Below are positions 1,559 through 63,016 of a DNA stretch of 64,000 nucleotides, in pieces. The DNA is from Saururus chinensis. Taxonomy: Eukaryota > Streptophyta > Magnoliopsida > Piperales > Saururaceae. The notes beneath the pieces were generated by a model. The model was not told the origin of the DNA. It was given only the letters and a program-made list of their open reading frames with translations, and did no database searches. The number at the start of each line of letters is the position of its first letter. The first letter of the stretch is position 1. Location of the stretch: assembly GCA_035235625.1 (NCBI GenBank), contig CP141146.1, positions 24,298,501-24,362,500 of the forward strand, written 5' to 3'. The position numbers and the translations under genes are program-made.

Positions 1559-4500
1559 TGGTTTTAAGTATTTTTGGGTCAAATCTGAATTTTTTGAATT
1601 TTTTTTATTTTTCACTAATTTTTCGAAAATTAGGGTTTGGCGGGACCCCCTGGGGCCCCACCCGCGAAATTGAGGTTTTTGGACTAAATTACCCAGGCAT
1701 CAACACAAGCTTTTATAAAAAAATTTATAATTTTCCAGGTTTAATTAGTGCTCAAATGATCAAAATACCCATTTTTAACCCAAATTTATATTCATACCTC
1801 ACTAGTTAATTACGTACACCCCAAGCCCTACTATAAATAAAAATGGTTGAGCCATTTCCATTTTGGGAATAGGCTGGGAGAAAGTGATTAAGGCCTAGTT
1901 CCCCAATTAGGCCCGAATTAGAAGATTAAGGTATGTTTTCTTTAATCAAGCCTAAATCCTAGGTTTTCTTCTAATTCATTCTTAATCCATCATTTCCCCT
2001 TTGATTTAATTTGATTTTAAGCATCAAAATCACTTATTTACTCCCTTACTTCAAACCCTACTTCTCAAAATTTATTTTTTTTGCTTAACAAACCCTAGAT
2101 CTAAGATTTCCTTAAGGTTTTAAAGGTTAAACAGATTTTTAATGGAGTTTAACTTAGACACTATGTTTTTGGAAGGTTTCCAAGAAGGATGAAGGGAAAA
2201 TCTGAACCTAATCAAGTGACAAGGTAATGGGTCTTCGAAATCAATTTTCCTATGGTAAAAAATCTCGATTTTTATGGTTTATTTGGAATGGGTTTACTTG
2301 ATTTAGTGCTCTAATGGTGGGATTAGTATATGTTAATTTCTTGGCCCGATTTCTTAGGGTTTTGTCTTAGGATGGTGTAGATTAGCATTCTGGAAAGTTT
2401 GATAGAGTTTTAATGGTGTTTGGGTTGATAGATGAAGGTTTTAAGTTGCATTAATGGAGTTTCAGTTTTGAAATTCGAAATGAAGAAGAATGTAGAATCT
2501 GCTTTGTTGGCATTCGAACGGCCTACCAGGGCATTCGGATTGCAACACTACCGTTTGGGCATATTTTCTATTTAGCCGATCGAATGGCCCTGCAGAGCAT
2601 TCGAACGACTACACTGCAGAATTGACCATTGTATGTATGTTTCTTATTTCGATGTCTTCACTCTGAAATATCATTTTTATGTTTATGTGGAGTGTTTTGA
2701 GATAGAGTAAGCTACTGGAAGAGCATACTATTGATGTTTAGAATTTGAGGTGCATATTTAAAGTTTATGTGAGGTAGCTTATAGTTGGATATATATGTTA
2801 GAATTACAATATTGAATATATGACTTGGAATGTTGGAATTGTTGTGATTAGAATATGTTTCCAGCAGGGATGTGATATAGCAAATTGTGAGATGTGTTCT
2901 CTTATAATGAGGATGGTTTATGGGTAATTGATGTGATCATGTTGTGGCTTATTGTGTAGAAAATCATGCTTGTGGGAATGAGCGTTTGATTTTACATTGA
3001 TGGATTTAAGTTTTATGGTGGATTTCACTTTGATTTCAGTTAGAATTCATTATTTTGAATGTCTTAAGCATGCATAGGTTGCCTTATGAGTTTATATCAA
3101 AGTATTGATTGTATGCTTAAGATATGCATGAATACACACGTATGGGGAATCTACTATGGCATTGTAGTTAATTATGAGGTGATTATGATGCATGAGGGGA
3201 CTGATTAGGACTACGTTCCATGTGTTGGAACCCACGTAGATCTCGCTCACGGATGTATCATGATATCATGCATCATGGATTGAACTTCATGAATGAGGTT
3301 TTACCGTTGGTTAATCAGAATTGATCAGTTGGATACAATGATTGAGATTGTGTGCCGGATTAATCGATCGGTTAATTAATCAAAACTTGGTTGGTCCAAA
3401 AGGACATGTTTTTTATTTGAGTTCCTGTGTGGAACATGTGCACTCCCCGGGTTGAGTCTAGTTAAATGGAATTATGTGGAGACGAGTTATATACTTGTTT
3501 TGCTGATTGAGATTATTATGATTGTCTTCTGGACCTTGAGAATCCAGAGTGGTACGCTTTGTGCACCAGCTACCACATGTTCTAGGGTTCTCTATGTGGG
3601 AACTCAGGCTCTCCCCCATCGCAAGAGATGTCCCTGGGCGAACACCCCTGCTCTAGGTTCTCTATGTGAGAATGGGACATCCTTGGCCAAGATCGTCTAG
3701 GGCGAGCAGCTTAGGGGATGACAACCCTGACCTTCTTATATTCTTGTGTAGAATTTGAACTATGACACGCCTTTGTGGCCTTGTCTGTGTTCCCGCCTAT
3801 GCGGCACTAATTGTGTTTACTCCTTGATGGAGGCATTTTCTATTTATGTTGATGCATGTATATGATGTATGCTATATATGTTTGTGTAACATGTGATTTG
3901 ACACATTTGTCGTGCAGAATGGATGAGATGTGTTATGAATGCCTGATTTGAAAAGTGTGATTGAGACACTATATGCAGGGTTATGCGATCTAAAAGTGTG
4001 GTTTAGACACTATGATGCAGGTTTAGGTGATGTGCATGTGTGATAAAAAAACGATACATCTTGTCAATTATTGATCTGAATTGTTATATTACTATACCGT
4101 CATGTTTCTGATGATTATAGTTATATTAAAAACCATTATTGAGTTTGTTATACTCACCCCTCTTTCTTGTGCTTTTGTTTTGGGGCTAGGTGGTGTGACA
4201 CACAGATGGACAGGATCCTCTTTATGAGGAAAGGTCGGAGAGGACTTGGGAGTAGACATGGAGACCTCTTATGTAGCATATTTTCTTTGATTTTTGTTAT
4301 GATGTTAGAACTCATGTGGTGTAGTTCTCGTTTTGGATTTGTGCTACATTATACCTTTAGATTGTTTGAGACATAGTTTTGGAGCCTAGTGTGGGTTATG
4401 GATTAATTAGTATGTGGGTTGGAGATTTGTGGTTTAATTTAGAGTTAAAGTAATTCTTTTAGTTTTACTTATTTACTCTTATGCAAAGTGATGCATTTAC

Positions 4501-8399: not shown

Positions 8400-11300
8400 C
8401 TTCTTACTGTGCTAAGAAACTAAGTAATTATCAACATAAAAACAACTTCCTGAGGTACCCTTCCTATCATCTACATTCTCTGCCCAATCTATATCTGAAT
8501 ACCCTAGTCACTTAGAAGTAGTGTCAAATAGGTACCATAAACCACATCCTATAATCCACTCATATATTTTATTATTCTTTTTACTGCTACCATGTGTAAT
8601 TTTTTAAGATCAGCTTGATATCTAGCACATACCCCTACACTTAGTTAAATATCTGGGTGGATAGCAGTTAAGAACAAGAAACTACCTATCATCTATACAT
8701 GATTTGTTCAACATATTTACCTGAGACATCCTTGCTTAACTTAATAGAAGGGGACATCAGTGTCTTAGCATTTTTTGCATCTTATAATCCAAATTTCTTT
8801 ACAATATCTTTTGTCAACTTTGATTGTGAGATGAAGATTCCTGACTCTATTTGTTGTACATGCAAACCAAAAAAATAAGTAATCCTTCTATACTCATTTT
8901 AATTTTCTAACTAATTGCTTTTACAAAAACTTTAGCAAACTTATCATTTGTAGATTATAAATAATATCATTAACATAAATTTGTGTTATCACTACATTCT
9001 TCCTAAATTTCTTGATGAATAATATTTTTTCAACACCACCTCTTGTATAACATTTCTTTATTAGGTATTATGTTAACCTGTTATACCATGCTCTTTGAGC
9101 CTGTTTCGATCCATAAAAAACTTTCTTCAACTTATACCATTATCAGGATGGTAAGGGTCTTCAAAACATTTAGGTTGTTCAATATAAACTTCTTCTTTCA
9201 ATTTCCCATTCAGAAATTAACTCTTAACATCCATTTTATACACCTTAAATTTTAAATGATATGATATATAAATAAGTAATCTGATAGATTCAAGTCTATC
9301 AACAGGAACAAATGTCTCATCAAAACCAAAGCCTTCTACTTGTGTGCACCCCTGAGCAATCAAACAAGTTTTTTTTCTAACCACATTACTTTGTTTATTT
9401 GTTTTATTCTTGTAGATCCAATCAGGTACTTAACCATGTTGAACTTGTGGTTCTTGAGCATCATCATAAGCTTCAGATTCATCTATATGATCATCATCAT
9501 GAATTTCTACCTATACTAATTCTTTTTTTAGCTTCATCATTAAAAACATTAAGTGGGTCATCATAATTATAACAATCATCAACTTTTTGTTTTTCTTTCA
9601 CATTTCAAACTTTTTCTTCCTCAAAGATTTGTATATCATTCACAATCACATTAAAATACTTCATGACAGTTTAACTTCTTTTATTAAACACTTTATATGT
9701 CCTACTAGTCAAAGAATATTCAAAGAATATTTTATCATCACTCTTACTATTAAATTTTCATCAGGCCCCTTTATTTTTCAAGCTATAATAAGGATTTCAA
9801 AAGGCTCTAAAGTGTTTGACAGTGAGTTTATTACCTCTCCACTACTCATTAAGTGTTTGAACTATGTATGGTCTTAAAGAAACTCTATTAAGGTTATATA
9901 TAGTCATGCTAAGAGCTTCTATCCAACAAGGTTTAACTAAGTTTTTCTCATTAATCATCACTCTAGTCATCTCCTGGATAGTCTTATACTTCTTTTCAGC
10001 AATTCAATTTTGTTGTGGGGTCTTAGATGTTAAAAACTCATGGTGAATTCCAATTTTATTATAAAATTTTGTAAACCTAAAATCAGAGAATTCACTTCCT
10101 CTATCACTTATGATGGCCTTGATGTTTAGTCCACTCAAATTTTGAATAGTTAGGGCAATGGTTTTGAATGCTTAGAAAACATCTAACTTCTCTCCAAAAA
10201 AATCTACCCAAGTAAATCTTAATAAGTTATCCACCATCACAAGATGTATTTATTTCCTTCTAAGTTTGCTATTTGCATAGGTCTCATTAAGTCTATTTGT
10301 ATCAATTCCAAAGGTCTCTCAATTCTCATATTCTCATATGTTTCAACTTTTTATGATGAGGTTTTGATTATTTACTATTTTAACAAATATCATCTAAAAT
10401 GTTTTCAAGGGTTTTCGAAATTAGGGCACCTCTAATGATTATATTATTTATTATCTTTATCAAATCTCTGAAATTAAGATGTTCTAACCTTTGATGTCAC
10501 AAATAAGTATTATCAAGCAAGGATAAGTTAGCAAAATAAGCAGGATCAAACAAATAACAATTATCATGAGCTCTCATACATTTAACACAAGTTCATATTT
10601 ATCAATGATAAGACATGTTTTCTTTGTAAATTTTACAATAAATTTAGAATCACAAATTCGACTAATGTTTAAAATATTAGTTTTCAAACCACTTACATAT
10701 AAAATATTATCAAAATCAGGCGAACCATAAACTCTTGATGTGTATATCCCATCTATTTTTATTGTACTCTTATCTTCAACAATCACCTTCATAAAATATT
10801 TCTTTATCAAGTTTGTAAACCTAGCTTTGTCATTAGTCATATATTTTAAACATCTACTATGTAGGTACCACATGTTAGTGGTGAGTATTCATACCGGTGT
10901 GCACTACATTACATATTCCACATCCTCTTTCTTCACCCAGATTGTACCATTTATTCCTTCTTGTGATAACCATTATAAGTATTAAATTTATGGGAGTTTA
11001 TTAGTGAATCATATGTGTGAACCGTATGTCTAAGATTTTGAATATTTGCACTAAGTTACCTCAAGTTTCTATGCATTTATGTGATTTGTCATAGCAAGCA
11101 ATTTTAACATCCACTCTAACAATTGGTGGCTTCTTCACTATTTTGTTTTGTTATGATCAAATTTAGTCCATAGCTCATTCTTAGGCAATTATTTTCTAAC
11201 CAAGGGTTTATAATTTGTAGTGCTAACATCATTATCTATCATATTTCTAGCCTTAACAAAATTTTCAATATGCTCAATTCCACTCTTATCACTTCCAAAT

Positions 11301-11605
11301 TGTCCAAATAAGAATAATTTATCATGTTTTTCCTTGTCTTTAACAAAGTTTTTCAATTTTGTAATTTTTTTAAACAACTCATGGTTTTTGTCATCACACA
11401 AAAATTTATCATACGCAAGTTGAGAATTTTCATATTCCATAGCACAAAATTGTGATTTAAGCACTTTCAATTCATCAAAATCGTGATTATTCCTAGTCAC
11501 TACAAAATTTGAAACAAATAAAGATAAGTTAAATATATTTTTAAATTCTATGGTAACCAAAAGCACAATCAAACCACACAAATACTAAAATGACCTCAGC
11601 TATCA
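8400..11605 (-). mobile_element. Ty1-copia gag-pol remains
   Basis: The order on the minus strand is gag tail (11189-11581), protease/GAG-pre-integrase segment (10574-10873, 'WYLHSRCLKYMTNDKARF'), integrase core (about 10090-10500, SDRGSEF), reverse transcriptase (about 8900-9700, starting 'DETFVPVDRLES' and with the IYVxDI catalytic box near 8960-8990) and RNase H (about 8440-8520, GYSDIDWAENVDDRKG). This is the copia order with integrase before RT. The element is a fossil broken in many places. Its 5' LTR is at 11610-12800. Confidence 0.8.
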
Positions 11606-11609
11606 CTTG

Positions 11610-12815
11610 TTAGTTTGTGACTATATATGTGGCAAACATAAGTCAAGAAAAATAAAGTGTCTCTAACCCGCAAATAAGTTAAAAGATTTATCTTCCCCTT
11701 TAAAATAAAATAAATTAATATTTTATTCTAATCAACGTCCACAATTCCTATGTCTTCTAACAAAAATTTGCAAACAAATCTTCGAGGAAGCACACAAGAA
11801 TTTTTACATAGAAACCCAAGAGTAGAAAAATTACGGGTCACTTTGTCCAGATCAACTATGTATTATGTAAATAAGAGATTATAAAATAATTGTTTATAAA
11901 GAACAAATACTCTTTTTTTCTCCACAAAGCTGGTCCTTCACACCACTCTATCTGAATCAACAACTCCTTGGTTATTTACCAGCATAAGTTTTATCTTCTG
12001 TCCTCCATGTGCTCTTCGATCAATCTAGATCTTTTATCTCCTTTTGAAATGAATCTTCTTTCTCCTTGATTTTCTCAGCAACAATCTTCAACCAAAACAC
12101 CATGTCACACAATTATTTTTGTGCATTCATCTCACCTCTAATCATTTTTTTATTAAGATAGACAAAACATAAAATTAGAAGACTAATTTTAGCAACTACG
12201 CACAAGTTCTCTAAGCTTTCTAAGCTTTCTTGTCTTCTCTACTAATGTTCCTAGCCCTTTTTATAGACTCTCCAAGTTTCAAAAAGAATGTGACTTTAAC
12301 TACGAATCTAAATCAACTTAGAAAGGTCTAATTTAGGCAATTTCGAGTTACAATGATCGATCAGTCCATAAGGAGATTGATCAGTTCCATGTATTTTTTC
12401 TCAATTTCACACAATGATCGATCAGTCTCACCTAGTGATCGATCACGACCATCTCAGCTAAAATTTTTATGTAAGATTTCAACCTACTGATCGATTGATC
12501 CAATGTAAGCAATTGCTCGTTCAATAATTTTTCATAGAACCTTCGAACATTCAAGGAAAATTGATCGTGACAATCAAACAATCAATCACTCTAAACAAAA
12601 TTTTCCATTTTTATTTAAAAAGTCCCCATCTCTCACCCACACTTCCACCAAAGGTATCTTTTATGTTAAAGTGTGTGAATGTGATGTGTGTTTTTACCTT
12701 ATGGAACATCGATTTGAGTCTTCCTTCATCTCCATCTTTAGAATATGATTTTTAGACTTATCATGACTTAAAATTATACATATATGACATTGTTTTAATC
12801 ATAAAAATAAGGCAA
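11610..12815 (-). mobile_element. Ty1-copia LTR (LTR B)
   Basis: This is the same family as the plus-strand LTR at 49311-50545. Shared stretches include the end (ATAG.CACAAAC.AACA), the GGGTTTCTA.ATAAAA.TTCTTGTG block and the start region with AAAACAATGTCAT. A degenerate tRNA-Met-type primer binding region follows the end at about 11595-11609. A TATA-like box (rc of 12257-12270) is preceded by GATCGATC palindromes at 12354-12445 and 12488-12520. The upstream end is cut by the repeat that begins near 12820. Confidence 0.65.
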
Positions 12816-12819
12816 TACA

Positions 12820-13703
12820 ATTGACACCCTCATCGACGTATTGAACTCTTGCCAATAACGAGTGGACTATTAGAGTCTAACTTGCTGATGTCGTAACCGA
12901 CAAGTCGGATTGACACATACCAATATGTGGATGTAGGTATTATTCATCTTCTTCCAACCACTTACGTCATCACCAATATGTCGATGATCACATAGATGAT
13001 CTGGTTAGAAGAAAAACAAAAACTATATAGGTGTTCAAAACATTTCCCTTTATAAAACCACAACATCTAGACTAGCAAATCTTTAGTTTAAACAATAATT
13101 ACAATCATTTAATCTTCAGGATTCATGATTACCATCAATACTCTAAAACATGGTAAAAATCTCATAGATAATTCCTAAAATCAAAACATCTATCTTATTA
13201 CATCACCCAACATGTTTTCTAACTATAAACAATAAGACTAATAAAGCATTTGATTACAAGGTTAGCAATCCGACAATATCTTTCCATTAGTAGGGAACAA
13301 GATCTCCAGTGTTCAATCTATTTCTCCCTCTTTCTCTGCTCTTTGATGAGGTCTCTTCCTTGACTTGAAGTCAATTTCTCAAGAGATTCAAGTCGTAAGG
13401 CATTAAAGAGTATTTATAGGGGCAGAAGGTAAGCGAATCAAGTGCATAACCGTGTCTGTAGCTTCATATAACAATTTGCTCTAAATAGTTTTGGCAAAAT
13501 TATTTTCATTCACCAATGTGTCAGTGGTTCCACCAATGAGTAAGAAGAACTGCCAATGTCAATACCTACAATTAATTAGTGATTTCATCAATGTGCCCAC
13601 AATGTGTGAATGTTAGCATCAATGACATTTAATTATTATTTTAAATTCAAATAATTCCAACATTCTAATCACATAAAATACCTTATAAATTCAAGTTGTT
13701 ACA
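12820..13703 (-). mobile_element. LTR-like repeat G, copy 1
   Basis: The segment is similar along its length to 50546-51378. Its right end reads ...GTTGTTACA, that is a TGTAACA start on the minus strand, and a TATA-like box (CTATAAATA, rc of about 13407-13416) lies inside. The word CACCAATG recurs at 13511, 13531 and (as GCCAATG) 13551, exactly 20 bp apart, upstream of that TATA on the minus strand. No coding domain is seen. The left end is approximate. Confidence 0.5.
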
Positions 13704-17214: not shown

Positions 17215-19025
17215 TTATGTTGACACATCATTGCATTCCATAGTCAAAGTTTCAAGCTCAGGTTTAGCATCAATGTAATCAAATGAATCATGAGCACCCA
17301 AACCTAAGATTGACATTTCACCCAATAAATGCTCTGCCTCATGCCACTTCCCATCCTTTTTGAGAACGTCAATGGTTAGCCTGTAACTGGCTCCATTAGG
17401 AAGCATCTTCTCTTCTACCATCTCCTTCAACAACCGTAAAGCTCTATAAGAGCTTCCTTCCTTGCAATAGCCATAAATTAATGTATTGTATATAACATCA
17501 TTTGGCTTCACATCCTTCTCAGCCATTGCATTGAACAATTTCACTGCATCCTTCATTCTACCTCCCAAACATAACCCATGTATCAGAACTGCATAAGTAT
17601 AAACATCAGCAGTAACACCTAATCTTTCCATCAAAGAACTCAACTCAAATGCTTTCTCGAAATTATTTGCTCTAACAAAAGCTCTAATAAGAATGGTATA
17701 GGTTATTCTAGAAGGAGAAATCCCTCTTTCCTCCATTTCTCTCAAGAGAGTGGCTGTTTCAATAAACTTACCTGCTTGAGCAAAACCATCAATAAGGGCA
17801 TTATAAGTAAACAAAGATGGGTTATGACCGTTTGCCTTCATGTGATGGAATAATTTCATGGACTTATCTACTTTACCCACTTTACAAAATTGATCAATAA
17901 GTGTATTATAAGTTACAGAATTTGGACTGAGTCGAACTTCTTGCATCCTAATCATCAGTTTCTCTGCTTCGACAAGTTTCCCACACTGGCACAACCCTTT
18001 AATCAATATATTATACGTCATAGCATTACAAGCAACTCCATTATATGTCATCTCATTAAGCAATTCGATTGCCTGGGAGAAACCGCCACCTTTACAGTAC
18101 TCACTCATTACAGAATTATATGTATAGAGGTTTGGAAGAATTCCTTCATTTCTCATCTGATTGTAAAGCTCAAATCCATATTTCTTGCAACCTTTTCTGA
18201 AAAAACCATTAATCATTACAGTGTAAGTGAACACATTAGCGACCAAATTCAATTTCCCCATCTCTTCAAACAACTGCCTAGCTACATCTAAATCACCGTT
18301 CTTACAATACCCATTGATCAAAGTCGTATACACAACAACATTTGGTGCACAACCCAATTCAATACCTTTCAGTTCAGAGAACAGCTGAAATGCCTTCCCC
18401 ATATTACCACACTCACAGCAGCCCCTTATCATGATTCCAAAAGTGTACTCATCATAGTCCAGTTTACCACGCCATTCATCAAATAACTGGGAAGCACTTT
18501 TGAAAAGACCACATTTCAGGAGTTGATTAAGAATATTATTGAATGTGTTCATAGTAGGCAACATTCCACTCTCAATTACTTGTTTGAAACAGAAAATAGG
18601 GATGTCCACATGAGTGTGCTGGAGGCCAAGCAGAGTTGAGGAAGTGAAGACAGATAGAGCCTCGAGAGGTGGGATCTTAACCAGTTTGGGTAAGATAGCA
18701 AGAATGTGGTGCTGGGTTTGGAACATTCTTTCTGTTACGCACTCAAAAGGATGGCTAAAACTTCTCAATTTCAGGAGGCTTGAACGATTATCAAGAATTC
18801 CCTGTTAATAAGAACAGGCAAAGGGGCATTTAGTATCATACTCCAGTGTGCATGGTCCTTCAAAAAAGCAAAACAAATCACAAATATAGAGCTGATTTTT
18901 ATAGTAGCTGCTACCACGTGAATATTAAAAAGAAAAAGTTGACAAGTCAAAAATCAGTAATGGAAATATTAACTAACCTGGAATTTCCTGATCCCAAAAA
19001 TTGTTGATTCTATCCTATTCATCAT
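17215..19025 (-). CDS. P-class PPR protein, probable mitochondrial, At4g11690/ABO8-like
   Basis: I propose two exons: 19025-18978 (16 codons, MMNRIESTIFGIRKFQ) and 18801-17215 (stop TAA at 17215-17217). The 176-bp intron has donor CAG|GTTAGT and acceptor TTAACAG|GG, and joins in frame to give 544 residues. Exon 2 has no good upstream ATG: the frame before 18768 starts with TTG, and the first internal Met is at 18726. About 12 tandem 35-residue PPRs of the P class (for example TYNILIKGLCQCGKLVEAEK, VIYNTLIYGYCKEGSSYRAL) fill residues 80-510, with no E/DYW domain. The arginine-bearing, acid-poor N-terminus suits a mitochondrial presequence. From memory the sequence resembles Arabidopsis At4g11690 (ABO8, nad4 intron splicing, 566 residues) along its length. 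Function is inferred from that similarity. The gene appears intact. Confidence 0.88.
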
Positions 19026-20519: not shown

Positions 20520-21367
20520 TGTCACGCCCGAGGTTTTTCTTTACATTTAATTAAAAATCTTAAAAATATTTTATTTCAAAATACAGATGTAAATTAAATA
20601 AACCGTCAAAATTCAAAGCGTGTGAATTTTTTTATACAAATTAATTTATTTTATGACAAACAAGCATTCTCAGGCGTGACCTAATACAAAAGCATATGAA
20701 TAAAATCTACCATGGTCATAGGTTTCGAAAACAAAAACCTCTCAGGCATCTCTAAGTAAAAGTTCTTTCACAGTCTTAAAATCATTCGTACATACATACA
20801 CAAGTCGAGTACATAATACATTTCTCTCACCTTAACCAATACATGAGATCATGACACCAAAATCCACAAAGCCTCGCTATAATTTCACTGCACTCCAGGT
20901 CGAAAAAGAATTGTCCACCACGGGAAAAGTCCAGTCTCAACAGCTAATGATTGACTTGCAAAAGCCTCCAGTCAAAGGGGCTAAAAAGATGGGGTGAGTA
21001 TTTTCATAATCAATAGGAAAATACCCAGTAGGGGAAATAAATCAATGAACTTCGTAAGTTCATTCCTAGATTCATCATCCATGCAATCACACATGAAGCA
21101 AGTACATGCAGCATAAATAAAATGTCTTACACACATACCATCGAACTGGTGAACTTACACTTACTCTTGTACTTACCCTTGTCGCATACTCTTACACTTA
21201 CACTTACACTTACACATAGCATACTCTTACTCTTACTCTTACAATTACATTACGAATCAAAGTCTTTCTTGTACCATCATATACTTACACTTACAGCACA
21301 TACATACTTGTACGAACTTACTTGTACCACCTTACTCATACAATCTTACTCATACTCATAAACTTAC

Positions 21368-22801
21368 TGATCGTTTATAATTAAACCCTTTGCAAGTGTA
21401 CAAGGTAATTGTACTAGGATGAGTATTTAAAGGTTGTCGAACCTCAGGGATGGATGAATTATTACTAAATCTAAAAAGGAATTTGCTGGTTGAAAACTAA
21501 AACAACTTAAACTTTAATTAAGTAAAGGAAAGAAATCAACTAGTTTAAAAATAAGAGATTAATATGATGAAAATTTACTTAGGAAATCGAATCCACTATA
21601 GAACCATAACAATTCCTTAACTTTTAATCTAAATCTAGTGTGAATATGAACAAGTATTCTCAGCTACAAGCTAGAATTACTTCAGAAAGAATCATTAATT
21701 AACTTCCATGGCATGAACTATCTTCGACAATAGCACGAATCATCTACACTAAATAGCTATAGGCATGACCTGTCTAATCTTATTATAACTCATCCAAGTC
21801 ATTAATTATCTGAACATTCAAACTATTGTATGACCATCTAATCTAAATCACAGAAATTAGAATTGATAAAAATATCACAACCACATCAATCTATCATCTA
21901 CAAGACAATAAATTAACATAGATTTGAATAAACATGAAAAGCTCTTCCATTAAAAAGGAAATCCGTATCATACAATTGTCATAATTCACAACTGAGATCT
22001 AAATTAAAAAGAAAAGAAACTAAAACTTATCTATAGCTTAATCAACTCCTAAGTACAAAAAGTCTAGCCTTCCATTGTAGAAGAAAGCACTTGAATCTCC
22101 ATTGAAAGCTTTGAATTTTTTTCCATCTTCTTCTTCCTTCTTCTCTTCAAAAAATTTACTTGCTAACCCCCAATTTGGAGCCAAATATGTCTTTATATAG
22201 ACATAAGATCTGTAGGAAGGAGTCCAATATGAAAAAGACTCGAAATTGGCTGAAATAAGGAAACTGCGCGTTATCCCGTTTAAACGCCCTGCATGCCCGT
22301 TTGAACGCTTATACTGCATTTTTCATCAAAATCACATTATCCCGTTCGAACTCCCTGCATGCCCATTCGAACGGCTACACTGTTTTTGCAATCTGGATAG
22401 TTTTTCTGGACAGTCCATTTTCTGTTCATTAAGCTATTTTTTTCATGTCCATGTTAATTTCCAACATGCGTGTAACTCCGAAAAGTTGTCCAAATCACTT
22501 TAAAGCATGTCAAGACTATTTTTAATTATTCCAAACATCGTTTAAATACTTCGATAAGTGCATTTTACCTACAAAACATAAAAACATCACATGTTAGATA
22601 TGTAGAATATAACTAAAATTCCAACTTGATTTAAATGCATATCTGAACTACTAATAACTACAAAATTATTAATAATTAAACTAAAATACAAATATCTATC
22701 TTAATCTATATAAATCATAACTAACTCCAAAATTAACCTAATTTATACTAGCAAATAAGGTAAAAAGGCATATAAAATAGATATATATTTCGTACTTATC
22801 A
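21368..22801 (-). mobile_element. Solo LTR D, copy 1, nested in E copy 1
   Basis: The segment is flanked by the 5-bp duplication CTTAC (21363-21367 and 22802-22806). Minus-strand ends are TGATAAGTACG and TTATAAACGATCA. It shares its promoter-distal half (the CCTGAGGTTCGACAACC.TT block, the GCAAAGGGTTTAATTATAAACG end, and the GAAGAGAAGAAGGAAGAAGA region) with the plus-strand copy at 24396. A TATA-like box lies at the rc of 22190-22200, with four palindromic sites (22276-22372) just upstream. No coding sequence. Confidence 0.85.
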
Positions 22802-23104
22802 CTTACTCTTACTGTCTTCCCTAGAAGCTTACACTTACCCTAAATCATACTCATACAACTTACTCAAAATCCGAAACATACTACTTACTCTTATTATCGT
22901 ACATATACTACCAACAACTGAAGCTCATTACAATTAATAAGCTCTAGCATCGGAAAGGATGGGAATGCCACTGGGGCGTCACCTTAACCTTCGGGGAGCA
23001 ACTAGACGCCATAGACTTTTCCGAAGGCAAGGCACACCTATGCTCATGGGGCACAAAATCAAACAGGTAAGAGTAGGTCCATGATACTGCTTACCTGAGC
23101 GCGT

Positions 23105-23290
23105 AAATGCCCACTCTTTGGGGCCATACATTTCCAAAAATGGCCATACAGTGCCAACTAAAGGCAGAAAACATACGGTGCCACTCTTGGGTATGAATCT
23201 TACAGTGCCACTCTTGGGCAGGACATACAGTGCCATCAGTAGGCCAAAAACATACAGTGCCCATGAAGGGAGAAAACTTACAACGCTCTC
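23105..23290. repeat. Minisatellite inside LTR E
   Basis: Five to six imperfect units of roughly 27-32 bp built on CATACAGTGCCACTCTTGGGC. The same array occurs in the other E copies at about 53905-54035 and 61725-61855 (inverted), so it is part of the LTR and older than the separation of these copies. Confidence 0.75.
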
Positions 23291-24395
23291 AATAGAGCAT
23301 CAAACATCTGGGCTGAAATACAGCACCAAGACTAAATCCAACAGGATAACACTATGGCTAAACCAATAAAGATGCTCAGTCGATTACTTATCGACTGGCA
23401 CAAAATGGAACTTAATCCGTCGAAACCCTCAGTCTCAAACTCACAATGTTATCAAATTAGGGTTATTTTTAAGTTCATATTAGGTAACTTATGCATGTAC
23501 AATTATGTTCGAAACTACTTCCATCTTACATTCTTTAGCCAACTAAGCAAGAACTGCGCTCGTTCTGAAGCTATAATCCACAAAAGTAACATTCTTTACT
23601 TAACTTATCCCCCACCTTACACTTACAATCTTACAAATCTCAGCATAGCCTTACTTGTCAAACTTAAATTCCATACTCACACTCTTACCATCTAATACTT
23701 ACGGTCTTACATCTTACACCATCTGCCTCAAAACCGAATCATCTTACTCAAACTCCTCAAATTAAACTCTTAGACTTAAGTCCCGACATCAAACCCTTAC
23801 TAATTCCTTACTCATTATTTTTCTATTACAATTCATATTACGTACATTATGCGGTACAATTATGTTGTCCACTTTCACTAATTCACAATCCCCCAAAGAC
23901 GTTAAGAACCTTGAATCTTCCAAATCATTACATCGCTTAGGTCTTCTGCTCACTACTCCAACGTACTACCCGACTCAATCCAAACCAATTATTTAATCTC
24001 ATCAAATCCAACCTTCGATGGTTCATCTTACATCTTTCCTCGCCCGCCATACAATCACAATTTCCATGTTGTAGCCTATGAAGTACCCTTTTGACAAACT
24101 TACAAACAAACACATGTACTCATGCTCATCGACCACACATATTTATCACATACTCAAATCACACACATATAATTCACCCATTACTTACTCTCATACCTTT
24201 AGTCCTCGCTAGCATATGCATGATTCATAGATATAAAACATGCTCATTTAATTAGCATTATCATGCAAAACATTAAGTTATAAACTCCTAGCATGCTACT
24301 ACACAATCAAAGCATGCTATAATGAAATTACAAATTCAAGGTCCCCTACCTCGTAATCCACAGGTGTTTGATGGCGAGCAAATGATGGTGGCAGC

Positions 24396-25569
24396 TGATA
24401 AGTATAATTTATGCGTTATTTTACCCTTAATTATTCTATTTTCTAGTCTCATTTAAGTGTTAATATAGGTTAAATTATTAAATATTAAATTTAATTAGGT
24501 TAGAAAAAGCTTCCATGGTGTTTTGAATTAAATTGGCTTATTTTGCAGATTCTTCATTGGCGATCGAACGGGGTCACTTACCGATCGATCGGTTACACGT
24601 GATTTTTAAGAAAATTCAGTTCAAGCGTTCGAACGGTCATGCAGGGCGATCGATCGGCATAACGCGCAGATTCCTTATTTCACCCAATTTTGAGTCCTTC
24701 TTATATCCAACTCTTTTCTTACGGATCTAATGCCTATATAAAGACTTATTTGGCACGAAATTAAAAGAAAACAAGTAGATTTTCTGAAGAGAAGAAGGAA
24801 GAAGAAGATGGAGAAGAAGCCAAAGCTTTCAAGGGAGATTGAATTATTTTCTTCTACCATGGAAGGCTAAACTATTCTTTTACTTAGGAGTTGATGAATC
24901 TATAGATAAGTTTCAATTTCTTTTCTTTTTAATTTAGATCTCAGTTGTGAATTATGACAATTGTATGATAAGGATTTCCTTTTTAATGGAAGAGCTTTTT
25001 AATGTTTATTCAAATCTATGTTGATTTATTGTCTTGTAGATGATAGATTGATGTGGTTTTGATATTTGCATCAATTCTAATTTCTGTGATTTAGATGAGA
25101 TGGTCATACAATAGTTTTAATGTTCAGATAATTAAGGACTTGGATGAGTTATACTAAGATTAGACGGGTCATGCCTATAGCTATTTAGTGTAGATGATTC
25201 GTGCTATTGTCGAAGATAGTTCATGCCATGGAAATTAATTAATGATTCTTTCTGAAGTAATTCTAGCTTGTAGCTGAGAATACTTGTTCATATTCACACT
25301 AGATTTAGATTAAAAGTTAAGGAATTGTTACGGTTCTATAGTGGATTCGATTTCCTAAGTAAAATCTATCACATTAATCTCTTGTTTTTAAACTAGTTGT
25401 TTTCTTTTCCTTTACTTAATTAAAGTTTAAGTTGTTTTACTTTTAAATCAGTAAATTCCTTTTTATATTTAGTAATTATTCATCCGTCCCTGAGGTTCGA
25501 CAACCCTTAAATACTCATCCTAGTACAATTACCTTGTACACTTGCAAAGGGTTTAATTATAAACGGCCA
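24396..25569 (+). mobile_element. Solo LTR D, copy 2, nested in E copy 1
   Basis: The segment is flanked by a perfect 5-bp duplication GCAGC (24391-24395 and 25570-25574), with ends TGATAAGTATAATT and TTATAAACGGCCA. It is the inverse-oriented relative of 21368-22801. TATA-like CTATATAAAG lies at 24732-24741, with palindromes CGATCGAACG, CCGATCGATCGG, CGTTCGAACGG and GCGATCGATCGG at 24561-24657 upstream. No coding sequence. I recognise the family only as a plant LTR, possibly Ogre/Tat-like. Confidence 0.87.
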
Positions 25570-25574
25570 GCAGC

Positions 25575-27470
25575 ATCGATAGCGGAATAGGCGGCCAAAA
25601 GCATCACACTAAGAGTCATTGTCCACAAGAGTTTGATTTTCAAAGATGCTGGAATTAATCTCAATAACGTTAGATTAATTTCACTCAAAGCCAAAGGTTT
25701 GGATGCACTAAGGCAGATGGACACAAAATTGTGTCACTAGAAATGGCAGCGACCACAGAATGGGGGTTGACTGATTGGAGGTCGGCCAACGGTTTAAAAC
25801 ACTTTGTTGGTGACAAAACATTAAAATGGACAGCAGACCATATTCAACGGCAACAATTCTGCATTATCAAAGCCTCACAACATGGCAGAGGGCTTACTTG
25901 TGTACACATGAATATAGGAGAGACAAAGGAGAGCTTTAACGGCCATTTTGCCTAATGGTGAAGACATTCCATAAACATACGTTGAGGCACTAAGGCCTGG
26001 CGTAGGTGGCCAACAAAGTCGGCATCATTTCTAAACGCTACCTACAACCAATTTATCGTACGGATGATCGTGCATCAAGCATGTCTTACGGTGGAGGATA
26101 TGGGCACAACATCGGTCAAGCCTACGATGGGCTGACTCTAATAGCTTACAATAATAGTTCCCCCTAGAAGAATTAGAATTCGAGAACTCTTTCTCGTAGG
26201 TTTTGGGCCATGTGTAACAGAAAGTGGGGGTCAGAGCTGGAATCAGGCCAGAATTGTTGACCCTTGATGTCACTGGGCTGGGGCAAAGCCCACGTTGGTC
26301 GGACATACTGCCCAAGTCCACGCTACGTCAGGCGGAACACCATGTTGGACTTAGGCTGGGGTGAGTCACTCGACAACGGTCACAGGTGTACCCCAAAGTT
26401 TAGGGGCGTTTGGTGTGTGCAGAACACGTGTAGGGGAGGCCAAAAACGACGGCTCCTTACCATCGCTGGGTCAAGCTTGCGTCGCGGCTGTCCACTGGTC
26501 GACGCCAGTGGTAGCAAAACTGTCGACAAAAATAACAAAGGGATTCGATTTAGTCGGGGCGAGAGCATGCCGAGCTAGGGCGGCATACACAATATCGTCA
26601 GGCCACGAATGGCCAAACGAGGCCTAGGGGACGGACTTGGGATACAGTGGTGACCCAGCAATTGCAAACCACAGTGAGTTGGACGGACACCAATTGGTGT
26701 TTGTCTGGAGTCTAGTGGTGACGAATCGACACCACTAGACCGAAACTGTGTTTCGGACTGAGCAGAGCAATGGGACGGAAGAGAGGTGAATGGGCGCAAG
26801 AGTGGTGGCTACCTGCCATCGTTGGCCCGAGGCGGAGCCGGCGACAGTGAGCAGGAGCTCCTCTGGCTACTCACAATCACAAAAAACAAACAGCGGTAAA
26901 AACACATTTTGTCTAGATCGAAAAAGGGGCGGAAGGAGGGTGAAGGGCCAAGGGATGCAATGGTTCAGCCAGGACGACAGACTGGGTGGTGGCCGGGGTG
27001 GCAACCTTGCCGTCGCCAGGCTAGGGGAGGGCCAATGGCCATTCAGTGGCGGCCAACCACCGGCAGCCGCAACAAACAGAAAAATGAGGAAAAATGGGCG
27101 GTGGAGAAAATCTTACCTCATGCCGGTAAAAGAGGGTGGGGAGGCCGGGACAGAAGTGGCCGGAGTTCACATTGGCCGAGGCAGAGCTCTGGCGGCAATC
27201 TGGAACCCATGCAACCGCTGGCATCGGCGAATCGGGGTGGAATCCACACCAAATGTCTCTGTTGGCTAAAACTGAAAAGAGGGGAACGGAGCGGCGGCGG
27301 CCAGCAAGGCCAGGCCGGAGAGGCTGTGGTGGCGAAGCCAGGCCGAGACCGGCTGGGCAGAAGTTAGCGGCCATCGACGGCGCCTCCTCCAGCCTCACAC
27401 AGTGAAGGGGGGACTTCCCCTTTTCACTGTTCACAAACGGTCGGGCGCACTAAGATGCACCCGATCGTTT
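25575..27470. other. GC-rich half of LTR E, non-coding
   Basis: Frames are open on both strands here (up to about 160 codons) but the predicted peptides are Gly/Arg/Pro-rich, differ between E copies and match no retroelement domain. They are explained by GC content. Recurrent blocks of the type GTCGCC..CCTGAGGCGGAGCCGG suggest internal degenerate repeats. Confidence 0.65.
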
Positions 27471-49310: not shown

Positions 49311-50545
49311 TGTGTTAGAACATAAGTGCCCTTATGTCATGCATTGACTTATTTATTTATCAAAACAATGTCATTAATGTGTATTTTGAGTTAGTTTGAG
49401 GTTTCTAGATTGATTTTTGATGGTGGAATGAAAGGAAGACTCAAATTTGTGTTTTTGACAGGTACAAACATGCACACACATCACATTCACACACTTTAGA
49501 ATAAAAGCGACCTTAGGTAAAAGAATGGTGAGGAATTTAGGTTTGAATATTGAGAAAATAAAAAATTTGGTCAGATTGATTGATCGTTGATGAACTATAG
49601 CATAATCTTTGAAAACAATATGAGCGATCAATCACTTCTCTGAATGATCATTCAACACCTGAAAATACTCAGTGTTAAATGAAGCCGAGAGTTTAGCGAT
49701 CGATCAAGGGGTTGAACAATCAATCGATGATGAGTCATGAAGGAAATGAGTAGGGATTGATCGATCCCCCTATAAAATGATTGATCGATTGAGCGACAAG
49801 TTGCCTAAATTAAACTTTTCCCATTTGGTTTGGATTCCTAGTTAGAGTCTTATTCTCTTTAGGACTTGGGAGTCTATATAAATAGATTGGGTAGTGATGG
49901 AGAGAGAGAAGATCTATAAAACCTAGTGAGCTTGTGTGGAGTGGCTCTAATGAAGTTTTGAGAGAGTTATTTTCTAGAATGAGAACATCTCTACCATAAA
50001 TAAAAAAGAGTAATTATAGGTGGGATGAGAGCATAGAAATACATGTGAAACATGGTGTTTGCTAAATATTGTTGCTGAGAAGATCAACAGAATAGAAGAT
50101 TCATTTCAAAGGAGGAGTTGCAAGATCTACTTTGATAAAAGAGTACAAAAGAGGAGAAGATTAAGCTATGCCAGTAAATAACCGAGGAGTGGTTGATTCA
50201 GAATTCAAAAGTGGTGTGAAGAACCGACCATTTGAAAAAAAAATGAGTTTTTTTCTTTGTAATTAGTAATTCTGTAATATAAGGTTTACATAGTACATAG
50301 TTGATTTGGACAGAGTGTCTCATAGTTTTTCCTTGGTTGGGTTTCCACATAAAATATTCTTATGTCTTTATTTTCTAATTTGGTTGCAAAATTTTTATTA
50401 GAACACATTAGAATTATGCATGTTAATTTGAACAAACTCTGTGTTTATTTTGTTTAAAAAAGAGAAGATAAAACTTAATTACAAGTTAGATGTACTTTAT
50501 TTTTCTCAGTTTCTCTATGCCACACATATAGTTCACAAACCAACA
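49311..50545 (+). mobile_element. Ty1-copia LTR (LTR C), same family as LTR B
   Basis: Starts TGTGTTAGAACATAAGTG, ends ATAGTTCACAAACCAACA. It matches LTR B along its length, in the opposite orientation. TATA-like CTATATAAATAG lies at about 49873-49884. Three pairs of GATC-type palindromes lie upstream at 49624/49643, 49696/49716 and 49757/49780. It has the GGGTTTCCACATAAAATATTC block before its end. No internal copia sequence adjoins it, so it is probably solo. Flanking duplication not seen. Confidence 0.75.
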
Positions 50546-51378
50546 ACTTGTTGGCCGAGGTGTCAATGACCATCGACATCCCCATTAATGCATCGAACCC
50601 CAACCAATAGTGGCTAGGCTATGGGACCCCTCTTGCCGATGTCATCATTGATGCAATGATCCCAATGTCAATGTCCAGTACAACACCGACATGATGCAAC
50701 ATGTCAATGCCGATACTGTTCATCTTCCAAAGCCATCACGAACATGTTGGAAACCACTTCGATGAGAGAGTTGGAAAACAAACAAAAGCTGTATGGCATT
50801 CCAAGAATCCCCTTCCATAAAACATGATAATATCAATATCTATACCGTCAATATTACAATTTAAAACATGAATAGGGAAATATAACCTGCATGATTCAAA
50901 ATTACCATTATTGCTCTAAACATGGCATAAATATCAGAAAATTACTACATCATGCATAAAAACACATCACACACTTGCAATCAAATTAAGAATATCTATT
51001 TCAACCATCATATGGTTACGAGGTTAGCAATTCGTCCTTCAATCATGCACAACTTCTCCTTTCCTAGCACGAAGTCATCTACACTCCAAGCTGGAAGCAC
51101 TTCGTTCTTCCTTAGACTTCTTTGAAACTCCAAATCAATTGGAAATATGAGATTCTTTCACTTTATAAAGGATGCAATTGCTTTTCAAAGTTAGAATTGC
51201 TTAACTACCCACATTTCCTGATGTAATTGTATCTCACAATTTCACCAATGCACCCACCAATACGTTGGTGCCTACCCATTTTCACCAATGTGTGCACTGA
51301 CATATATGAGGCTTACTGATGAAAAAGGAAATTTCAAAAATGAAAGTTATATTTTTCTTGGAAAAATACGAGGTGTTA
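50546..51378 (-). mobile_element. LTR-like repeat G, copy 2
   Basis: Similar to 12820-13703. The right end GAGGTGTTACA is a TGTAACACCTC start on the minus strand and abuts resumed gypsy pol. A TATA-like CTTTATAAAG lies at the rc of about 51168-51178, with CACCAAT words at 51243-51290 upstream. No coding domain. Confidence 0.55.
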
Positions 51379-58380: not shown

Positions 58381-61300
58381 TGTAACATCCCCGATTTTTC
58401 TGTAATTTTTCTATTATTTTCTACAACTTTCTGCAATTTTCTACTCGTATTTTTTATGAAGAAATTTGACGCTTCGGTGTATCTGTATTTGTAATATTTG
58501 TGTCCGTAAGTGTTGGGAGTCGTGCTTAGTCGCAGGTCATGGGCCTCGACGCATCCCATAAATTTTTCGGCAAAGTTTTGGACGAAACGCGGGAGAGTTG
58601 TAACGAGAAGAAAAGAAAGAGAATAAAATGTATAAAACGGATCAGGTGCGCCTCAGCACGCCCGACCTCCGCTTTGCGAACAGTGAATGGGGCTTAACCG
58701 TGTGAGGCCGGAAGGGCTACTGGCGCTGGCTGCCGGCTTTTGCCCAGCCGGCCTTCTCCTGGCGACATCGCCACCGCCTCCCTGGCCTGGCACCACCGGC
58801 CACCGCCGCCCCTCTCCCTCTTTTCCGTTTTAGCCCAACTGAGAACCGCACCCTTGTTTTGCTCCAATTGACATTGCCGGCGGTTGCATGGTGTCCAGAC
58901 CACCGCCATAGTTTCCGCCCAGGCCAGAGCAACCTCCAGCCACCATCGTCCCAGCCTCCCCACCCCTCTGTCGCCGACGTGAGGTAAAATTCCTGATTTT
59001 ACTATTTTTATGTGTTTCTGTGCGTTGTGGCAGCCGACAGAGCAGCTGGTCGCCACCACCCCGTGGCCTGGACTGCAGCCTCCCCGGACTGTGGCCCCTC
59101 CTATTTTCCGGTCCAGACATAACCGTTTCCCCATTTTTCTGTTCTGTTTCTGTCGGTGTGTTGCGGCCGCAGGCCATGCCACTGGTGGCCGGCCGCCGCC
59201 AAATGGCCTTTGGCCCCACCTCGGCCCAGTGACGACAAGACCACCACCCCTAAATTGGATTGCCGTCTTCCTGGCCAGTCACCTCTCCTTCCATCATTTT
59301 CCGATCCGGTGAGATCATTTTTCCCTTCTTTTGGTTGTTTTTGTTTTGTCTTTCTTTGGCTGTGAGTAACCACAAGAGCTTCGGCTCACTGTCGCCAGCT
59401 CCGTCTCAAGCCGATGACAATAGGTAACAACCCTCATGCATTTTTCCTCTCTTCCACCCCATTGCTCCGCTGGGTCCGAAACACAGTTTCGGTCTTGTGG
59501 TTTTGATTCGCCACCGCTAGACTCCAGATGAACACCAATCGGTATCCATCTAGCTCACTGTGGTTTGCAATTGCTTGGTCACCACTATATCCCAAGTCCG
59601 TCCACAGGCCCCGTTTGGCCATTTGTGGCTCAACAATATGTGTATGTCGCCCTAACTTGGCACATGGTCACCTCAGCTAAATCAAGTTCAATTGTTTCTT
59701 CTGACCGGCAATTTTGCCACTGGCAACATCAGCCAGCGGATAGCCGTGAGCCGGCTTGTCCCAATGATGATAAGGGGCTGCCATTCCCGGCCTCCCTTGC
59801 ACGCCTTCTACCCAAAACGTACACCCCCTAGCTTTGAGGTACGCCTCTGATTGCTGTCGAGTGACCCACCCAGCCTAAGGCCAATTGGTGTCCCACCGAC
59901 GTGCGTGGACTTGGGCATATGTCCGACCGCGTGGGCTTTGCCCCGGCCCAATGACATCAAGGGCCAATAACTCTGGCCCAATTCCAGCTCTGACCCCCAC
60001 TTCCTATGACATACGACCCAAAACTTACGGGGAAAGAGTTCCTGAATTCTGATTTTTCCAAGGGGAAGTAAAATTGTTAGTCGTTAGACTCAGTCCATCG
60101 AAGGCTCAACCGATGTCATGGCCATACCCTCCACTGTAAGCCGTGCTTGATGCACAATTGTCCGTACAATGAGTTGGTTGTGGGTAGCATTTAGAAATGG
60201 TGCCGCCTTTGTCAGCCTCTTACGCCAGGCCTTAGTGCCTCAACGTATGTTTAGGGAACGTGTCCACCACTAGGCAATATGGCCGTTAAAGCCCTCCACC
60301 ACCTTGTCAGGCTTCGACGATGCAGAATTGCTGCCGTTGGATGTGGTCCGCTGTCCATTTTCATGTTTTGTCACCAACAAAGTGGTTTAAACCGTTGGCC
60401 GACCTCCAATCAGTCAGCCGCCATTCTGTGGTCGTTCTTGCCATTTCTAGTGGCACGACCTTGTGTCCGCCCACCATAGTGCGGGCAATCTTATGCTTTG
60501 AGTGTAATTAATCTAACCTTATCGAGATTAATTCCAGCATCTCTGAAAATCTTCGGGACAACGACTCTCAGTGCGATGCTTTTGGCCACCTATTCCGCTA
60601 TCGACGTCGCCACGTCGTTTACTCACCATCAAACTCCTGTGGATTACGAGGTAGGGGACCTTGAACTCGTAATTTCATTATATCATGCTTTGATTGTGTA
60701 GTAGCATGCTAGGAGTTTATAATTAATGTTTTGCATGATTATGCTAATTATAAAAGCATGTTGAATGTATGTGACTTGTGTGTGTATGTTAGTGAAGACT
60801 AAGGACACGTAGTAAGTGTAATGAATTGTATGTATGTGACCAAAGCGTGTGATCTTCTTTGTGGGCTGGTGGTATGTGATAGATGGGCACAAGTAGAAGT
60901 GTTTGATTGTAAGTTTGCCGAAGGGGTACTTCGTAAGCTATAACATGGAAACTGTGATTGTATGTCGGGCGAGGAAAGACAAGATTGAAAGATGAATGTT
61001 GGATTTGATGAGATTGGAGAATTTGTTTAGTTTGAGTTAGATGGAACATTGGAGTGACGAGTAGGAGACGTGGGGGATGCAAGGAATTGAAGACTTAAGA
61101 TTCAGAGTGCTTTTGGGGGATTGTGAGTTAGTAAGAGATAACGATATATTTGTACATGCATAATGTACGTAATATGAATTATAACGAAAGAATAATGAGT
61201 AAGGAATTAGTAAGGGTTTGATGACGGGACTTAGGTCTAAAGGGTGTCATTTGAGGAATTCGAGTAAGATGATTCAATTTTATGGCAGATAGTGTAAGAT

Positions 61301-63016
61301 GTAAAGTGTATGATGATAAGATTATCAGTAAGGAATTCGAGTTTATATAAGACTATGCAGAGATTCGTAAGATTGTAAGTGTTAGGGTGGGAGATGAGCT
61401 AAGTAAAGGATGCTACCTTTGTGGATTAGAGCTTCATAACAGGTGTAGTTCTAGCCTGGTTGGCTAAAGATTGTAAGATGGAAGTCATTTTCATCATAAT
61501 TGTACATGCATAAATTACCTAATATGAACGTGAATGGTAAGTAACCCTAATTTGATAACGTTGTGAGTTCGAGACTGAGAGTTTCGACGGATTAAGTTCC
61601 ATTTTGAGCCAGTCGATAAGTAATCGACTGAGCGTCTTTCCTGGTCTAGCCATGGTGTTATCCTGCGGGATTTAGTCTTGGTGCCGTATTTCAGCCCAGA
61701 TGTTTGATGCTCTATTGAGAGCGCTGTAAGTTTTCACCCTTCATGGGCACTATATGTATTTAGCCTACTAATGGTACTGTATGTCCTGCCCAAGAGTGGC
61801 ACCGTATGTTTTCAGCCCTAAGTTGGCAATGTATGGCCCCAAAGAGTGGGCATTTGCGCTCTCAGGTAAGCAGTATCATGGACCTGCTCTTACCTGTTTG
61901 ATCATGTGCCCCATGAGCATAGGTGTGCCTTGCCTTCGGAAAAGTCCAAGGTGTCTAGTTGCTCCCCGAAGGTTAAGGTGACGGCCCAGTGGCATTCCCC
62001 TCCTTTCCGACGCTGGAGCTTATTAATTGTAATAAGCTTTAGTTGTCGGTAGTATATGTACGATAGTAAGAGTAAGTAGTATGTTTTGGATTCTGAGTAA
62101 GCTGTACGAGTATGATTCAGGGTAAGTGTAAGCTTCTAGGGAAGACAATAAGAGTAAGTTTATGAGTATGAGTAAGATTGTATGAGTAAGGTGGTACAAG
62201 TAAGTTCGTACAAATAAGGTCGTACGAGTATGTATGTGTTGTAAGTGTAAGTGTACGTTGGTACGAGAAAGACTTTGATTCAGAATGTAAGAGTAAGAGT
62301 AAGAGTAAGAGTAAGAGTATGCTATGTGTAAGTGTAAGTGTAAGAGTATGCGACAAGGGTAAGTACAAAAGTAAGTGTAAGTTCACCGGTTCGATGGTAT
62401 GTGTGTAAGACATTTTATTTATGCTGCTTGTACTTGCTTCATGTGTGATTGCAAGGATGATGCATCTATGAATGAACTTATGAAGTTCATTGATTTATTT
62501 CCCTACTAGGTATTTTCCTACTGAGTATGAAAATACTCACCCCATCTTTTTAGCCCCTTCGATTGGAGGCTTTTGCAAGTCAATCGTTAGCTGTTGAGAC
62601 TGGACTTTTCCCGTGGTGGACAATTCTTTTTCGACTTAGAGTGCAGTGAAATCATAGCGAGGCTCCGTGGATTTTGGTGCCATGATCTCATGTATTGGTT
62701 AAGGTGAGAGAAATGTATTATGTACTGGATTTGTGTATGTATGTATGAATGATTTTAAGACTGTGAAAGAACTTGTTCTCAGAGATGCCTGGGAGGTTTT
62801 TGTTTTCAAAACCCATGGCCATGGTAGATTTTATTTGTATGCTTTTGTATTAGGTCACGCCTGATAACGTTTGTTTGTTGTAAAATGAATTTATTTACAA
62901 AAATTGTTTGCATATGATTTTGAATTTTGTTGGTTCTTTGATTTACGTCGGTATTTCAAAATAAAATATTAACAAAGTTTTTAAAGTAAATGTGTGGAAA
63001 AACCTCGGGTGTGACA
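58381..63016 (+). mobile_element. 4.64-kb LTR family E, copy 3 (solo)
   Basis: The perfect 5-bp duplication AGGGC (58376-58380, 63017-63021) flanks TGTAACATCCCCG...GGTGTGACA. Length is 4636 bp. It is inverted relative to copies 1 and 2. TATA-like GTATAAAAC lies near 58630, about 250 bp from the start, which supports this orientation. It contains the GC-rich half (58650-59960), the minisatellite (61725-61855) and the CTTAC-type tract read as GTAAG (62085-62400). No gag or pol. Confidence 0.9.

Follow-up and report, generated by a model that had tools for sequence, protein, structure and literature searches.

Introduction

The tobacco retrotransposons Tnt1 and Tto1 carry repeated activator boxes in their long terminal repeat (LTR) promoters. 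These boxes are short U3 motifs repeated just before the TATA box, and their number and sequence differ between subfamilies. Here we describe an array in an LTR family of Saururus chinensis that resembles them in these respects, except that its motifs are palindromes, stand in two evenly spaced pairs and are made of other letters. The heat-response elements of ONSEN-type copia retrotransposons offer a second parallel, as clustered, partly palindromic sites that drive the LTR. A heat-shock element consists of GAA and TTC blocks two bases apart, a spacing that the motif GWTCGAWC lacks; our sites read GTTCGAAC or GATCGATC, and spacing rules out this identity. Neither the B-box (TFIIIC) nor the CHR-type and P1BS-type elements match all letters of the site, and to our knowledge no protein has been described for a CGWTCGAWCG site.

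The nearest lineage, possibly Athila-type Ty3, shares the reverse transcriptase, RNase H, integrase order seen in a copy whose LTRs are 99% like one of ours. At the level of search results, a literature search turned up no comparable array for Athila-type Ty3, searches by motif words and by LTR palindromes returned no description of the array, no publication combining two of the four motif words was found, and four that linked a single motif word with retrotransposons were not considered relevant.

We analysed a window, meaning the whole stretch of 64,000 nucleotides of contig CP141146.1 (positions 24,298,501 to 24,362,500), and searched the host genome (516 Mb, 11 contigs). Comparing two LTR copies in this window, an earlier note had proposed that paired changes preserve the symmetry of the palindromes through selection or conversion. 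Two copies hinted at compensatory change; with many copies in view, most of the evidence favours stepwise changes at an unconstrained position, together with CpG decay.

Results

The window contains two solo LTRs that belong to the same family. The plus copy (24396..25569, + strand) spans 1174 bp from TG to CA and is flanked by the target-site duplication GCAGC (24391-24395 and 25570-25574), while the minus copy (21368..22801, − strand) spans 1434 bp and is flanked by CTTAC (21363-21367 and 22802-22806). Both solo LTRs have the TG...CA termini and 5-bp target duplication of LTR retrotransposons, and the target of the minus copy is uninterrupted in a related repeat near 62153. BLAST aligned the two LTRs at 90.9% identity across 969 columns. 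Both were inserted in a single repeat copy (20520-26890), a relative of which, at 59345-63016, is without them.

Copies elsewhere in the genome place the family. L011 and L012 are the two LTRs of one element and are 99% like the plus copy; the LTR in L012 is followed by a stretch apparently complementary to tRNA-Asp. L131, an internal piece lying between two LTRs of one copy, encodes RVT_1 and RT_RNaseH followed by Integrase_H2C2 and rve. Because reverse transcriptase and RNase H precede integrase in this piece, and the LTRs on either side of it match the plus copy at 99%, the LTR family that carries the aligned palindromes is Ty3. Neighbouring LTR copies lie about 5.8-5.9 kb apart in three cases (L005/L007, L015/L018, L028/L029) and about 10.8 kb apart in three others (L011/L012, L013/L014, L019/L020). 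The shorter spacing suggests a short, perhaps non-autonomous form that shares the LTR.

Each of the two LTRs contains four sites arranged in two pairs. On the + strand of the plus copy, site 1 (24561..24570, CGATCGAACG) is an imperfect dyad and is followed by site 2 (24582..24591, CGATCGATCG), site 3 (24626..24635, CGTTCGAACG) and site 4 (24647..24656, CGATCGATCG); the TATA box (24734..24742, + strand) starts 79 bp past the final base of site 4. In the minus copy, read on the − strand, site 1 (22364..22373, CGTTCGAATG) and site 3 (22298..22307, CGTTCAAACG) are imperfect, site 2 (22343..22352, AGTTCGAACG) has its dyad over 8 bp only, and site 4 (22277..22286, CGTTTAAACG) is perfect and corresponds to a double CpG decay of CGTTCGAACG; the TATA box lies at 22192..22200 (− strand). 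Site-to-site steps are 21, 44 and 21 bp in the plus copy and 21, 45 and 21 bp in the minus copy, the pair-to-pair distance is 65-66 bp, and both arrays end 78-79 bp before TATA. The earlier description of paired sites just upstream of TATA in two aligned copies is thus borne out, as is its main example, aligned site 4, where CGATCGATCG in the plus copy faces CGTTTAAACG in the minus copy and both are perfect palindromes with different cores. Its second example, site 2, exists as a pair (CGATCGATCG and AGTTCGAACG), but the minus-copy member is perfect over 8 bp only, and three sites that it did not spell out (CGATCGAACG, CGTTCGAATG and CGTTCAAACG) are all imperfect. The BLAST alignment of the two LTRs reaches the upstream pair at most with its edge, so the correspondence of that pair between copies rests mostly on layout.

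Perfect 10-bp palindromes account for four of the eight sites. The pattern CGWTYRAWCG occurs 6 times in the window against 0.38 expected, a count reached in none of 100 shuffles. Only 5 of 118 perfect 10-bp palindromes in the window hold at least two CpGs, and four of these five are sites of the two LTRs. CpG observed/expected is 2.29 and 1.79 inside the two arrays and 0.57 and 0.56 in the remaining LTR.

Letters were counted column by column across 96 aligned copies. T4 and A7, the non-CpG core, carry their commonest letter in 99.0% of copies on average over 8 columns, none below 90%; the search anchor raises the apparent conservation around sites 3 and 4, and at sites 1 and 2, away from it, the average is 98.5%. 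The W columns fall below 75% in seven of eight cases, as do 19 of 45 columns in the linker sequence from site 1 to site 3, and 716 of 720 lettered W cells hold A or T. For the 24 CpG letters in the sites, the commonest letter averages 87.4%, with 16 of the 24 columns below 90%. Because T4 and A7 are nearly constant while W varies, the site is best written CGWTCGAWCG with W free. Genome-wide, CGATCGATCG occurs at 8,095 places versus 378 for the reversed word, 21 times more. Among the matches listed, distances of 21, 45, 64 or 85 bp between such places are frequent, a spacing that suggests more copies or families with arrays; our sampled context leaves out many of the 8,095 places.

We then asked how the two half-sites of a palindrome vary together. 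The anchor CATGCAGGG-12-ATAACGCGCAG, allowing at most two mismatches, matched 2,358 places in the genome, and its reversed control none. Between subfamilies, CGWTCGAWCG varies mainly at position 3 and its mirror position 8, both W. In the context GCAGGG...ATAACG, which pools sites 2 and 4, these positions read A,T at 817 places, T,A at 838, A,A at 117 and T,T at 14 (controls, 0-1 each), so that mixed sites (A,A or T,T) make up just 131 of 1,786. A second pattern of 35 places, covering sites 3 and 4 and demanding A or T at the four W places, matched 1,932 places (control, 2); here the left halves of sites 3 and 4 read T,T at 909 places, T,A at 318 and A,T at 22, leaving 683 for A,A by subtraction. 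Genome-wide, phi is 0.86 within sites (positions 3 vs 8) and 0.68 between these left halves, a gap to which the plus-copy type, with TTCGAA at site 3 and ATCGAT at site 4, contributes.

This within-site excess, moderate genome-wide, did not recur in a sample of copies or on the tree as a whole. The sample for phi comprised 87 copies, all the lettered rows among 100 listed of the 1,932, and was blind to site state. Within sites, phi was 0.83 (site 3) and 0.72 (site 4), and the four between-site pairs gave 0.84 (left halves of sites 3 and 4), 0.67, 0.70 and 0.56. Trees were built from 89 loci, with 89 less 4 used for independent-pairs sign tests and 83 for dependence tests; tree support is weak, with 3 of 85 inner branches starred. 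On the 83-copy tree, twice the log-likelihood gain of dependent over independent change was 4.7, 5.3, 35.3 and 10.5 within sites (median 7.9) and 3.25 to 27.64 between sites (median 11.7, 12 of 24 pairs tried), the largest value of all being the 35.3 of site 3; these fits used short searches with bounded rates, and sampling favoured mixed sites at site 4. The sign tests offered 1-2 usable pairs among the results listed. Thus half-sites covary strongly, as the earlier note had predicted, but the covariation is not clearly specific to the dyad.

We coded a TTCG-type half as t and an ATCG-type half as A, and the 102 of 130 loci in which all four sites could be placed (best match within a few bases) yielded 20 genotypes. 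Six of these form a chain of single half-site changes, tt tt tt tt -> tt tA tt tt -> tt tA tt tA -> tt AA tt tA -> tt AA tt AA -> At AA tt AA, in which sites 2 and 4 change in parallel and whose two ends match the minus and the plus copy in half-site genotype. Because all six are found among the loci and connect the all-TTCGAA state to the plus-copy genotype, simultaneous change is not needed. Each step has one or more members within a single tree group of 22 rows (SH-aLRT 92, not starred), namely L056 and the minus copy, L031, L071 and L074, L067 and L068, L033 and L058, and the plus copy; L061, L064 and L073 share chain genotypes but sit elsewhere on the tree. A second group places AA AA AA AA beside At AA AA At and At AA AA AA. 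Among the 20 genotypes there is no direct single-step chain to the all-A genotype, which takes 10 steps for 8 differences, and three genotypes stand apart. Random genotype sets are an unfair null for such chains, since the real genotypes share descent.

All three CpGs are kept in 85 of 116 AA sites and in 54 of 131 tt sites; tt may be the older state on average, which would fit this retention. Among the 336 of 341 sites that have T4 and A7, double decay of the central pair was seen 4 times against 3.8 expected. The other mirror doubles numbered 2 vs 2.2 at positions 2+9 and 5 vs 2.5 at positions 1+10 (p 0.09), while the twelve non-mirror pairs ranged from 1 vs 2.3 up to 7 vs 3.4. The minus-copy site CGTTTAAACG, two CpG decays away from CGTTCGAACG, is one of the four central doubles. 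Because such doubles occur at the chance rate, CGTTTAAACG is explained without selection for symmetry. Neither selection for symmetry nor conversion is required, given the single half-site intermediates and the chance-level double CpG decay, although a preference for symmetry keeps some room; the proposal that symmetry-preserving pairs reveal one or the other is therefore only partly supported.

Linkers and flanks vary independently of site state: at site 3, the upstream flank TGTA accompanies AA 18 times and tt 10 times, and TTCAAG accompanies tt 18 times and AA 13 times, so that state and flank are uncoupled. Arrays with one pair and arrays with a third site in a pair both occur. A mixed site 1 is present in all 27 displayed copies of L001-L030, and an abundant subfamily retains an imperfect site 1.

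A similar two-pair layout (20-21, 41-45 and 20-21 bp, ending 78-89 bp before TATA) is found in the Ty3 LTR and in a copia-type repeat of the window. In the first copy of this repeat (11593..12826, − strand, with limits set by its alignment to 49335-50561), the array at 12354..12445 (− strand) reads TGATCGATCA, AGATTGATCA, TGATCGATCA, TGATCGATCA in plus-strand order, with steps of 20, 41 and 21 and degenerate sites beside it, and the TATA box (12259..12265, − strand) lies 89 bp after the last site. The second copy (49335..50561, + strand) is 68% identical to the first, and its array (49697..49787, + strand) has steps of 20, 41 and 20, a second site two mismatches off, and a TATA at 49875, 88 bp downstream. 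Past the first copy, the minus strand holds pieces of Pol_BBD (10574-10888), rve (10004-10171, E 7.7e-05, below the cut-off score) and the Ty1/copia reverse transcriptase RVT_2 (9217..9429, E 2.9e-15). RVT_2 is downstream of integrase, the Ty1/copia order, and on the strand of the repeat; because these pieces follow the minus-strand copy, we take the repeat, by its position, to be the LTR of that Ty1/copia element.

Exact GWTCGAWC words in the window number 10 against 1.5 expected (maximum of 5 in 30 controls), and all 10 lie in the two LTRs or the two copies of the copia-type repeat. A scan for the layout, with limits fixed after the copia array was known, returned 4 places, the two Ty3 LTRs and the two copia-type copies (which count as one case), whereas 60 Markov controls had no hit; when seven other classes of spacing were scanned, six gave 0 and one gave 1. 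Within two mismatches, the scanned stretches of the copia-type repeat hold 11 and 12 words, and because of these further degenerate sites nearby its layout is partly a choice among sites. BLAST found no homology between the copia-type repeat and the LTR of the aligned palindromes, and sensitive local alignment of their promoter pieces gave z 1.7 to 5.4 against shuffles, partly through the sites themselves.

A further candidate array, decayed and assigned to neither strand, lies at 2511..2607 with 21/45/21 spacing and a decayed second site. BLAST does not align its surroundings to the LTR; sensitive local alignment exceeded shuffles, with z 4.4 to the plus copy and, on the reverse strand, z 6.4 to the minus copy. 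A region near 5848, whose reverse strand also exceeded shuffles (z 4.5) against the copia-type repeat, was left out for its weak sites.

Discussion

We propose, as the probable explanation though well short of a firm one, that a dimeric protein docks on the four sites as a promoter-proximal array, and that stepwise shifts at W, CpG decay and recombination together yield palindromes that differ between copies. In the control array of the Ty3 LTR, the dimer-binding site CGWTCGAWCG would stand in two pairs that end 78-79 bp before TATA. Within a pair, 21 bp correspond to two helical turns, which would set both sites on one face of the DNA. The binder would be a dimeric DNA-binding protein, probably encoded by the host, that may activate the promoter and would accept A or T at the W of each half-site. 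Lineages could then have switched from T to A, or the reverse, half-site by half-site, with imperfect sites propagating along the way, and the 21-bp and 65-bp units and the pair flanks may have been duplicated or recombined, mixing the variants. The perfect palindromes with differing cores in our two copies would be the product of half-site steps plus CpG decay. The simplest account, which we hold with moderate confidence, is a dimer seated on pairs along one helix face just before TATA and either recruited or tolerated by several retrotransposon groups, at least two.

A bolder extension, tentative and clearly below even chances, is that one dimeric host protein recognising GWTCGAWC drives or silences several unrelated LTR groups through a fixed layout, in which sites 20-21 bp apart form two pairs, 41-45 bp separate the pairs and the array ends 78-89 bp before TATA. 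The layout would have been gained independently or have moved between Ty1 and Ty3, and the shift from TTCGAA to ATCGAT would follow a change in the protein or in the copy of it that is used. If true, Ty1 and Ty3 elements would share one control point over part of the plant's repeat load. We place both this extension and the docking array itself slightly lower because of the degenerate copia sites and the longer chain to the all-A genotype.

Among other explanations, the one that survives best, if still doubtful, is mutation without selection, in which template switching at near-palindromes, or conversion between sites, perfects imperfect sites. Loop-free 10-bp palindromes are poor substrates for hairpin-based switching, which speaks against the first of these routes. 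According to PMC8794818 and PMC8604942, template switching evens the arms of inverted repeats, a way to paired changes without selection; unlike that process, our arrays display single half-site steps and lasting imperfect states. Pair flanks and site number vary as recombination predicts, and sites 2 and 4 change in parallel along the chain, but imperfect intermediates exist and some have been amplified, as the 117 A,A places and the plus-type site 1 attest.

Slightly behind, and in our view unlikely, comes selection for symmetry, in which a homodimer needs like half-sites, so that once one half has changed, the corresponding change in its partner is favoured. The scarcity of mixed sites (131 of 1,786), the genome-wide phi of 0.86 within against 0.68 between sites, the tree dependence of 35.3 at site 3 and the abundance of both A-type and T-type sites (817 and 838 places) are as this explanation expects. 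Set against them, the between-site association in the 87 copies is equally strong, and the large excess of A,A (117) over T,T (14) is unpredicted by a symmetric homodimer. Mixed site 1 is moreover carried by every one of the 27 displayed L001-L030 copies, and mirror CpG decay has no clear excess, even at positions 1+10.

Pure descent, a few founder lineages plus drift in a functionless site, is improbable. It would explain why the two big states track subfamilies on the tree and why sites are linked to one another as founders predict, but not why T4 and A7 keep one letter when subfamilies differ in 19 of 45 linker columns, nor the CpG excess in the arrays, nor the similar layout in the copia-type repeat. 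Least probable by far is that the palindromes act in RNA, as a stem or in genome dimerisation like retroviral dimer-initiation loops: U3 does lie at the 3' end of genomic RNA, palindromes can pair between molecules, and retroviral dimer sites stay self-complementary while their letters change, but a dimer-initiation site needs a stable RNA hairpin loop, predicted folding of the two arrays equals that of shuffles (z -0.06 and -0.42), the sites lie upstream of TATA, and copies with imperfect sites amplify.

The evolution of binding-site arrays is naturally recorded in retrotransposon promoters, and the value of this family lies in its surviving copies, which preserve single half-site steps between two array states and so make binding-site evolution readable.

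The window was also screened for other features. Rfam gave 0 matches in it at gathering thresholds, and no tRNA genes were found in it. On the minus strand, a 529-codon open frame at 17215-18804 encodes about 11 pentatricopeptide (PPR) repeats and is probably a host gene.
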